DNA from: Tuwongella immobilis
GTDB taxonomy: Bacteria > Planctomycetota > Planctomycetia > Gemmatales > Gemmataceae
Length of the DNA stretch: 64,000 nucleotides
Assembly (NCBI RefSeq): GCF_901538355.1
Contig: NZ_LR593887.1
Span: forward strand, 868,001 to 932,000
Direction: 5' to 3'
The translations under genes and the position numbers were made by a program. Below the pieces are notes generated by a model. It searched no databases. It was not told the DNA's origin and saw only the letters and a program-made list of their open reading frames with translations. Within the stretch, counting starts at the first letter, position 1. Every line of letters starts with the position of its first letter. Positions 2,672 to 5,354 of this stretch are shown one piece after another.

Positions 2672-3658
2672 ATGAAGATGGTTGTTCGTCGTCGAGCGTT
2701 TACGTTAATCGAATTGTTGGTCGTGATTGCAATTATTGCGATCTTGATTGGCCTGTTGCTGCCCGCAGTGCAGAAAGTCCGCGAGGCTGCCGCCCGCATG
2801 ACCTGCCAGAACAATATGAAGCAGCTTGGCATTGCCATGCACGCGTATGAATCTGCGAATGGCGCGTTCCCGGCGGGCACGGAAAACATCCAACACTGTG
2901 CGCTGGTGACGATGTTGCCGTACCTGGAACAAGAAAATCAGTTCCGGAACTTCGGTCAAAATCCGTCGTTTTTCTACTATGCTGGCGCGCAAAACAACAT
3001 TCCGCCCACGCCGTATGTCGATCTCGGCCGCCCGTATGGTGCCGAAGGGAACTTCAAGGTGTTCACCTGCCCGTCGGCGATCCCGGCTCAGGGACAAGTG
3101 GCGGTGGCTCAGTTGCGGGTGTTCGGTGTCGCGGGGACGGATTACCACTCCGCATTCGGTGCCACGCAAACGACGTATCACTACACGCTGTCGAACGGTC
3201 TGACCGAACAAGTCAACCGCATTGGTCGCACCAATTATCTGCTGATGGTGGGCTATCTGGCGACGTTCCGTGATTATGAAGGGATCTTCCAGCACACCCG
3301 CCCGACCAAGATTACTTCGATCACCGACGGCACCAGCAACACGATTGCCATGCTCGAAACGGCGGGTGGCTATTTCACCTCGCTGAACGGCTGGTCCGGG
3401 ATGGGCTGGATGCATGCGATTGTCCCCTCGAACTTCGGCATGTGCCCCGATGCGACGAATCCGAACTGCGCCACTGCCTCGGTGCCGCAAGCCCGGAACA
3501 TGGGTGGCACGGGCATCCCCAGCAGCTTCCATGGCAGCAACCGAATCAATACGCTGTTCGGTGATGGCTCGGTGCGGTCGATCAATTCGTCGTTGGATTT
3601 CACAACGTATGTCTATCTGACCGGCAAGTCGGATGGCACCGTGGTCAATCTGGATTGA
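2672..3658 (+). CDS. DUF1559 prepilin-like secreted protein
   Basis: 328 aa. The N-terminus is a type IV pilin/pseudopilin-like signal: a short Arg-rich leader, then [20 protein letters not shown] with the conserved Glu five residues into the hydrophobic helix. [14 protein letters not shown] and the '[13 protein letters not shown]' motif follow. The C-terminus has the family motif H-x(n)-DGSV ([20 protein letters not shown]). This is the planctomycete-expanded DUF1559 (SBP_bac_10-like) family, thought to be processed by prepilin peptidase and surface-located; function is unknown. Start at 2672 is supported by GGAG 7 nt upstream. A small lipoprotein gene follows 26 bp downstream, a pairing also seen at 13-15 kb and twice at 58-61 kb. 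Confidence 0.93.
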
Positions 3659-3684
3659 GTTGCGATTCTTTCGGAAGTGAGATA

Positions 3685-3870
3685 ATGATGACGCGAACGA
3701 TGCTGGTGCGTGGATTGTGTCTGGTGGCGGCGATGATGGTGCTGCCGTTGGTGGGATGCTCGGGCGAAAAAGATCCGACCTTGCCGACGAATGTGAAGCA
3801 AGACTCGCGGCTCCAACGCACGGGCGAAAATACCGGCAACGCCGGCGCCATGCCCGATAAGAAGAAATAA
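3685..3870 (+). CDS. small lipoprotein downstream of DUF1559
   Basis: 61 aa. The hydrophobic leader (MMTRTMLVRGLCLVAAMMVL) ends in the lipobox LVGC, so the mature protein should be lipid-anchored at the Cys. The mature part, about 35 residues, is hydrophilic (GEKDPTLPTNVKQDSRLQRT) and ends in KKK. GGAAG lies 7 nt before the ATG at 3685. The gene follows a DUF1559 gene at 26 bp, so co-transcription is likely. It has no recognisable domain, unlike the longer lipoproteins after the other DUF1559 genes. Confidence 0.75.
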   Translation: MMTRTMLVRGLCLVAAMMVLPLVGCSGEKDPTLPTNVKQDSRLQRTGENTGNAGAMPDKKK

Positions 3871-4000: not shown

Positions 4001-4345
4001 TTACGAAATTTCGTAAGCGGCCCGCTTCGATGAATCCCATGGGAATTTACGAAATTTCGTAAGTGGCCCGATTCGATGGATACCGTGGAGATTTACGAGA
4101 TTTCGTAAACGACTTGCTGTGGGAGTGTGCCCTGCGGATGGACGAATTTTCGGAAGCAGCGAAGCGATGTTACGACTGCAAAAGCAGTTACAGAAATTTG
4201 GTATCGGTGATGGAGGGATCTGGGACTCCGGTCGATGGACGAGATTTCGGTAATACTGGGGAATGATGAGACGGGGTAGATTTACGAAATTTCGTAAATC
4301 GTGCAGCCACGGATGGAGTGCGAGTCGATTTACGAAATTTCGTAA
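4001..4345. repeat. tandem array of eight palindromic 16-bp sites, period 45-49 bp
   Basis: The perfect palindrome TTACGAAATTTCGTAA occurs at 4001-4016, 4047-4062, 4282-4297 and 4330-4345. A one-mismatch copy is at 4093-4108. Degenerate copies fall in phase near 4140, 4188 and 4237. The last two perfect copies extend to 22-bp palindromes (4279-4300 and 4327-4348). Spacings are 46, 46, 47, 48, 49, 45 and 48 bp. Spacer sequence is partly conserved in the first units (GGCCCG-TTCGATG-). The array fills the gap between a small lipoprotein and a convergent DUF1559 gene. A dimeric DNA-binding protein could occupy each site. It is not CRISPR: the sites are self-palindromic, spacers are related and no cas genes are present. 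Confidence 0.9.
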
Positions 4346-4382
4346 ATCGTGGAGTGATGATCGGATCGATGGGAAAACAACA

Positions 4383-4424
4383 CCGCCGTCGAAGAGGCTG
4401 GAGCGTCTTCGACGGCGGGATGTT
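4383..4424 (-). terminator. bidirectional intrinsic terminator
   Basis: A perfect 13-bp inverted repeat (CCGCCGTCGAAGA at 4383-4395, TCTTCGACGGCGG at 4406-4418) has a 10-nt loop. On the plus strand it is followed by TTTTT. On the minus strand it is followed by TGTTGTTTTCC. It sits 25 bp after the stop of the minus-strand DUF1559 gene and next to the palindrome array. Confidence 0.8.
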
Positions 4425-4442: not shown

Positions 4443-5354
4443 TCAATAGTCGCCAGGAATGTCGCCGTAGTCACGGGTCATCAGGGCGGCGAAGGTCGCG
4501 GCCGAGATGGTCGAGCGGACGAAGCGGACCGAGCCATCGGCAAACGCGACGTTCACGCCGCCGGTGTGGAAGCTATACGGTTCGCTGTAGTTGTTGCAAT
4601 TCATGATGCAGGTGGCCCCAGCCGAGGCGGTGATGCTTCCACCGTTGATTGCGCCGGTGGTGGGGTGGGTGCCGTCCATACTGCCGGAGACGCCGTCCGG
4701 ATCAGCCCAGCCACGGCCTTCGGGCAGGGTGGTGCCGGTATCGCGGCCCAGAATGTAGCTGTTGGGCTGAGCGGAGTCTTCGATAATCATCATCGTGTTC
4801 GAAGTACCGTCGGTGATGGCCAACAGCGGCGTTTCGAAGTCGATGTGCAGCGCGCCGTTGAGGTCGGCAGCCGGGGCAACCAAGTTGTTGGCAGCGTAGA
4901 ACCGCGGACGCAGGCGATGGAACACGACATAGTCGATGGGTCCAAGCGCGGGGGCCACCACCGGCCGACGGGTGTCCGGAGCCGACGGGCAGAGGAAGAC
5001 TTTGATCTTCGTTTGGGCAATGGCGAGGTTCGTCGCCGAATCCCAACGCTGGGTGTTATCCCATTGACGAGCCACGTTATCTTGTTCGACGTAGGCCAGC
5101 ACGATCGGCGTCCAAGCGCGGAACTTGCTGGATGGCACGTTGACGCGGGTCGCTGGCAGTTTGCTATCGTTGTTGGTGGCATAGTTGTGGAATGCCAGAC
5201 CCATTTGCTTCAGATTGTTTTGGCATTGCATCCGGGCCGCCGCTTCGCGGACCTTTTGCACGGCAGGCAACAACAATCCGATGAGAATTGCAATGATCGC
5301 AATCACGACCAGCAATTCAATCAACGTAAACGCCGAACGCTTCGAACGAGCCAT
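4443..5354 (-). CDS. DUF1559 prepilin-like secreted protein
   Basis: 303 aa, starting [15 protein letters not shown] with the pilin-like helix and [19 protein letters not shown]. The C-terminus contains [19 protein letters not shown], the H-x9-DGSV motif of the family. The ATG at 5354 is preceded by GGAGAAGG at 6 nt spacing; the open frame runs further upstream but without the characteristic start. The protein should be exported, cleaved before the Phe and anchored by its helix. Unlike the other copies it has no lipoprotein partner next to it. A strong terminator follows. Confidence 0.93.

Follow-up and report, generated by a model that had tools for sequence, protein, structure and literature searches.

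Sigma-54 activators act from a distance, and activators of this class with palindromic upstream activating sequences (UAS) are already known. Among described systems, the FhlA type has a palindromic UAS of approximately 16 bp (CATTTCGTACGAAATG, PMC4987338) built from TTTCGTA/TACGAAA half-sites; the sites of Tuwongella immobilis share this design, but their half-sites stand in the opposite order. Also common to both systems are an HTH_8 tail, an AAA+ sigma-54 activator and, at the promoter-linked cluster of T. immobilis, a sigma-54 promoter downstream of the sites. The T. immobilis system differs from FhlA-type UAS in that its clusters hold up to five to eight sites and in that most of them, including the array described below, have no recognisable promoter. 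The RclR/RcrR oxidant regulons (PMC9600549) are comparable in that the corresponding operon of the relatives of T. immobilis encodes DUF417 and CMD proteins; however, the regulator here is a sigma-54 activator, and neither CMD nor DUF417 genes were located in T. immobilis among the matches listed. DNA sponges or decoy sites also combine many good sites with the lack of promoter output (PMC7686491), but synthetic sponges have spacers of 10–30 bp compared to approximately 29–33 bp in the array, and the decoy action considered here is one that we infer. The new feature is the presence of multi-copy arrays of near-ideal sites that lack a promoter. A literature search, carried out mostly without subscription journals, returned no paper on the activator, its site or its operon, and no match to the exact 16-mer.

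The window analysed is a stretch of 64,000 nucleotides from the T. immobilis genome (6.69 Mb, one contig). It harbors an array of eight copies of TTACGAAATTTCGTAA, five intact and three decayed, which follow each other at steps of 45–49 bp and carry no strand assignment. Units 1 (4001–4016), 2 (4047–4062), 7 (4282–4297) and 8 (4330–4345) are exact copies, the last two each extending into the longer palindrome GATTTACGAAATTTCGTAAATC. Unit 3 (4093–4108, TTACGAGATTTCGTAA) has a single mismatch, which falls in the variable centre and makes its sequence the same as that of the pair at the promoter-linked cluster near genome coordinate 2912k. The degenerate copies are unit 4 (4140–4155, GGACGAATTTTCGGAA, four mismatches), the badly decayed but in-phase unit 5 (4189–4204, TACAGAAATTTGGTAT, five mismatches) and unit 6 (4237–4252, GGACGAGATTTCGGTA, five mismatches). 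At least five matches with three or fewer mismatches were obtained in 0 of 100 shuffles. When the middle of the array was Markov-shuffled, none of 20,000 versions scored equally well for in-phase placing; the phase of the three degenerate copies is not due to chance. The four perfect, one near-perfect and three degenerate copies listed in a first-pass annotation of this DNA were all recovered at their eight positions, and the steps that it gave (46, 46, 47, 48, 49, 45 and 48 bp) are close to those we measured (46, 46, 47, 49, 48, 45 and 48 bp).

The same annotation had proposed that the array grew by unit duplication. This applies to units 1 and 2 only, whose spacers are 77% identical against a shuffled mean of 44%, whereas the remaining spacers are at or near background identity. 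Since the intact cores are nevertheless identical at 15–16 of 16 positions, the palindrome has been kept and the spacers have not, and the simplest reading would be selection on the core rather than duplication alone.

The array is placed between convergent genes that are both directed at it, and no gene starts outward from it. On the plus strand, a small lipoprotein-like gene (3655–3870), located downstream of a DUF1559-type gene (2672–3658), ends just before the array. On the minus strand, a DUF1559-type pseudopilin-like gene (4443–5354), typed by close resemblance to a Pfam-identified DUF1559 protein and given a chosen start codon position, converges on it. A terminator-like stem-loop on both strands (4383–4418) closes the array, with a 13-bp perfect stem (4383–4395/4406–4418), a loop of 10 nt, an A-run before and a T-run after, which fits the strong bidirectional terminator previously noted at this border. 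It was not found by a consensus terminator scan, the loop limit of which is 8 nt. A sigma-70 promoter scan at the array found no promoter.

A whole-genome search for exact TTACGA-N4-TCGTAA gave 16 sites in seven places: 659k (one site), 872k, which is the array in the window (five), 2129k (two), 2912k (two), 5388k (four), 5810k (one) and 6044k (one), with additional near-sites at 5388k and 5810k. The reversed control pattern matched once in the genome, and the sites are thus not scattered at random; random scatter would have argued against a genuine array. Of the seven places, only 659k is not intergenic: its site, at 659,444, is the sole exact copy within a gene and falls in the coding sequence of a 3-keto-disaccharide hydrolase. 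Five of the seven clusters stand 85–230 bp upstream of start codons. The pair at 2,129,775 makes up an inverted repeat, GGATTTACGATTTTTCGTAA-AAAG-TTACGAAAAATCGTAAATCC, which is near-perfect over 44 bp and separates a DDE_5 transposase gene from a DUF1559 gene. The sign of the GC skew switches near coordinate 0 and near 3.4–3.6 Mb, from which a likely replication origin was placed. Clusters 659k/6044k and 872k/5810k are mirror-symmetric about this origin, within 13 and 8 kb (P of approximately 0.0014 for seven random loci, calculated post hoc). In the family, one or two exact sites are present in four of 94 other Gemmataceae genomes and none in the other 90. Strict pattern searches across the phylum, and degenerate ones in 11 genomes, revealed few sites elsewhere above the reversed control, because the working sites of the relatives are imperfect.

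In a scan of 84,980 species, two TTACGA-N4-TCGTAA sites were found 2–32 bp apart at 39 loci, which do not represent one system. Some of these pairs are upstream of XRE genes. In Lokiarchaea and Bathyarchaeota, palindrome pairs 19–44 bp apart adjoin DtxR-type regulators or metal-transport genes (eight loci), and in chlamydiae and proteobacteria AAA_14-DUF4143-type genes are preceded by two sites exactly 32 bp apart (seven loci), a use of the palindrome that is apparently unrelated to that of the array. As the same half-site occurs beside XRE, DtxR-type and AAA_14-DUF4143 genes, the palindrome by itself does not name its binder. An XRE repressor was the binder first suggested by this public scan, and it was rejected, the HTH_3 loci found in T. 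immobilis all being devoid of the site. Four Bacteroidota pairs adjoin sigma-54 enhancer-binding proteins with a similar HTH tail (GKVSGxGGAAELLGMxPTTLxSR). T. immobilis encodes 13 sigma-54 activators, and the tail of one of them resembles this sequence.

This candidate binder, encoded at 2,898,006–2,899,667 on the minus strand, 2.0 Mb from the array, is a protein of 553 aa with a GAF domain, an AAA+ Sigma54_activat domain and an HTH_8-type tail. When the 61-aa tail was searched in 392 genomes of planctomycetes and in 95 of Gemmataceae, it was found in only one protein of this genome, and the activator proved to be present in scattered planctomycetes. The T. immobilis protein aligns full-length to the activators of relatives (51–63% identity), and rpoN is present in the same genome. 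In the relatives, two to three sites stand just upstream of the GAF/sigma-54-activator/HTH_8 gene at 15 loci, ten of them in Gemmataceae and five in other planctomycetes. Typical positions are −65, −47 and −26 relative to the activator start, with spacings of 18 and 20–22 bp; at one locus (L230) the central site can barely be made out. The 18-bp spacing is common to the relatives and to the T. immobilis 2912k and 5388k clusters. Unlike in the relatives, no site was found upstream of the T. immobilis activator gene, which is also separated from its operon. The suggestion to look for a repressor carrying the site in its own promoter was therefore borne out in the relatives, although for an activator, and not in T. 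immobilis itself.

To score the sites, a matrix was built from 45 sites at 15 loci of other genomes, with nothing from T. immobilis. The training sites were selected within each promoter for their similarity to TTACGA/TCGTAA in the spacing observed, and the matrix hence leans to the consensus; the test contributes the location of the sites, at activator promoters, and the comparison with background. The scans covered the 64,000 positions of the window, 400 kb of genome samples and the fetched loci. The five intact units took ranks 1–5 in the window: units 7 and 8 jointly first (29.9 each), unit 2 third (29.1), unit 3 fourth (25.6) and unit 1 fifth (23.4), compared to a background maximum of 16.0 over 400,000 positions of the T. 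immobilis genome. Two of the decayed units, 6 (14.0) and 4 (11.7), ranked seventh and ninth. The other six clusters scored 18–29, and several of the other promoterless clusters are near-ideal as well. The site sequence of the array thus equals that found upstream of the orthologous activator genes, and the cognate activator and rpoN are encoded in the same genome. Collectively, these comparisons strongly suggest that the palindrome is the predicted site of a GAF-AAA+-HTH_8 sigma-54 enhancer-binding protein, a putative binder named by the matrix, the site spacing and the operon and not by the palindrome sequence.

The first-pass annotation was right in reading the array as binding sites of a dimeric regulator, for which we propose the HTH_8 sigma-54 activator, while its further suggestions of a chromosome-organising protein or a relic of a replication or partition locus found no support, the same sites in relatives being a promoter-linked enhancer. 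Operators of an XRE- or DtxR-type regulator, or a partition or chromosome-organising site, are indeed very unlikely: the palindrome is also carried by XRE and DtxR genes in other organisms, but the site is missing at the HTH_3 loci mentioned above, and in the relatives it is tied to the sigma-54 activator and belongs to one promoter region, with 0–2 exact copies in 94 Gemmataceae genomes. A ParB gene is present at 54 kb. More improbable still is that the palindromes serve as hairpins in a transcript. The strand does fold better than shuffled sequences (z = −5.1), but such folding would result from any group of perfect DNA palindromes, no Rfam match was obtained, and the matrix derived from activator promoters accounts for the sequence.

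In the relatives, the sites face a divergent operon, with a sigma-54-type promoter, mostly TGGCAC-N6-TGA, on the far side. Among the ten loci of Gemmataceae, its distance is 132–134 bp in eight and 107 bp in one, and it was not found in the tenth; in the five other planctomycete loci it is 86–136 bp. The −12 element of these promoters is mostly TGA rather than the usual TGC. The operon encodes, with variations, CMD, DUF417, DUF1348 and alpha/beta hydrolase proteins. In T. immobilis, the 2912k pair (2,912,372–2,912,405, 18 bp apart) precedes a DUF1348/alpha-beta-hydrolase operon, the products of which are 70–73% identical to their counterparts in relatives, and a sigma-54-type promoter, TTGGCACCGGAAATGAAT, lies approximately 70 bp after the sites. 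On a matrix from the relatives this promoter scores 20.8, and only 5 of approximately 800,000 background positions reach at least 14. The same clade-specific matrix supports the 2912k promoter only, with no match near the array in the window or at any of the five remaining clusters. Scans with the general sigma-54 consensus around the clusters did no better than background. As no clade-type promoter accompanies the array, we class it as activator sites and not as a working enhancer.

From the computed sites, binder family, promoter, operon and orphan layout, we infer a circuit of binding, looping, titration and a chemical signal. The array would be a cluster of UAS for one sigma-54 enhancer-binding protein, with one HTH dimer per 16-bp palindrome, and neighbouring dimers may aid each other. 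Activator bound at the 2912k pair would loop to TTGGCACCGGAAATGAAT and thereby switch on the DUF1348/alpha-beta-hydrolase operon. The CMD and DUF417 (RclC-like) genes of the related operons hint at a function in oxidant or electrophile defence. RclC and RcrB, which serve E. coli in defence against hypochlorite, belong to the DUF417 family (PMC9600549), and Burkholderia CMD genes respond to hypochlorite (PMC2830190). The GAF domain of the activator contains a cysteine-rich stretch in common with planctomycete relatives (C-x2-C-x5-C-x5-C in T. immobilis), and an oxidant or electrophile is a plausible signal of the circuit. The array in the window, for its part, would bind and hold the activator with no local transcription, and so set the amount of free activator available to the real promoter.

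Such a sponge is, in our tentative view, the most likely of the roles considered for the array. We place it first because the activator gene here lacks upstream sites and direct feedback seems to have been lost; the role itself is drawn only from the missing promoter, and it leaves unexplained the position of other clusters 85–230 bp upstream of genes. That position would suit local control, in which each cluster would act on an adjacent gene or antisense RNA, either through a sigma-54 or other promoter missed by the matrix or by blocking transcription. Weak sigma-54-like sequences are indeed present around clusters 5388k and 5810k, but these matches are at background level in unrestricted scans, and the array in the window faces no start codon, nor did the sigma-70 scan detect a promoter there, which leaves local control unlikely. 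We consider it similarly doubtful that the array is a remote enhancer looping to a sigma-54 promoter some kb away. Its near-ideal, well-kept sites would be expected of one, but the best clade-type promoter score from 7 kb to the left to 12 kb to the right is 11.2, equal to background, and the neighbouring genes are directed at the array. An eroding relic, left by a promoter-linked enhancer whose operon was lost through rearrangement, or a neutral expansion, would agree with the decay of the three middle units and with the splitting of the activator gene itself from its operon in T. immobilis. Near-identical cores between diverged spacers are, however, unlike neutral decay of a whole unit, and several other orphan clusters are near-ideal as well, so that an origin of this kind also appears improbable.

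With the sponge as the preferred reading, the promoterless, near-ideal arrays of T. immobilis may, somewhat speculatively, constitute a chromosomal sponge that replaces the direct feedback likely to operate in the relatives. Taken together, our analysis leads from an anonymous palindrome array to a testable circuit comprising an activator, its site, a promoter and a target operon, and the promoterless array provides a natural setting in which to ask whether bacteria tune enhancer-dependent activators with decoy sites.
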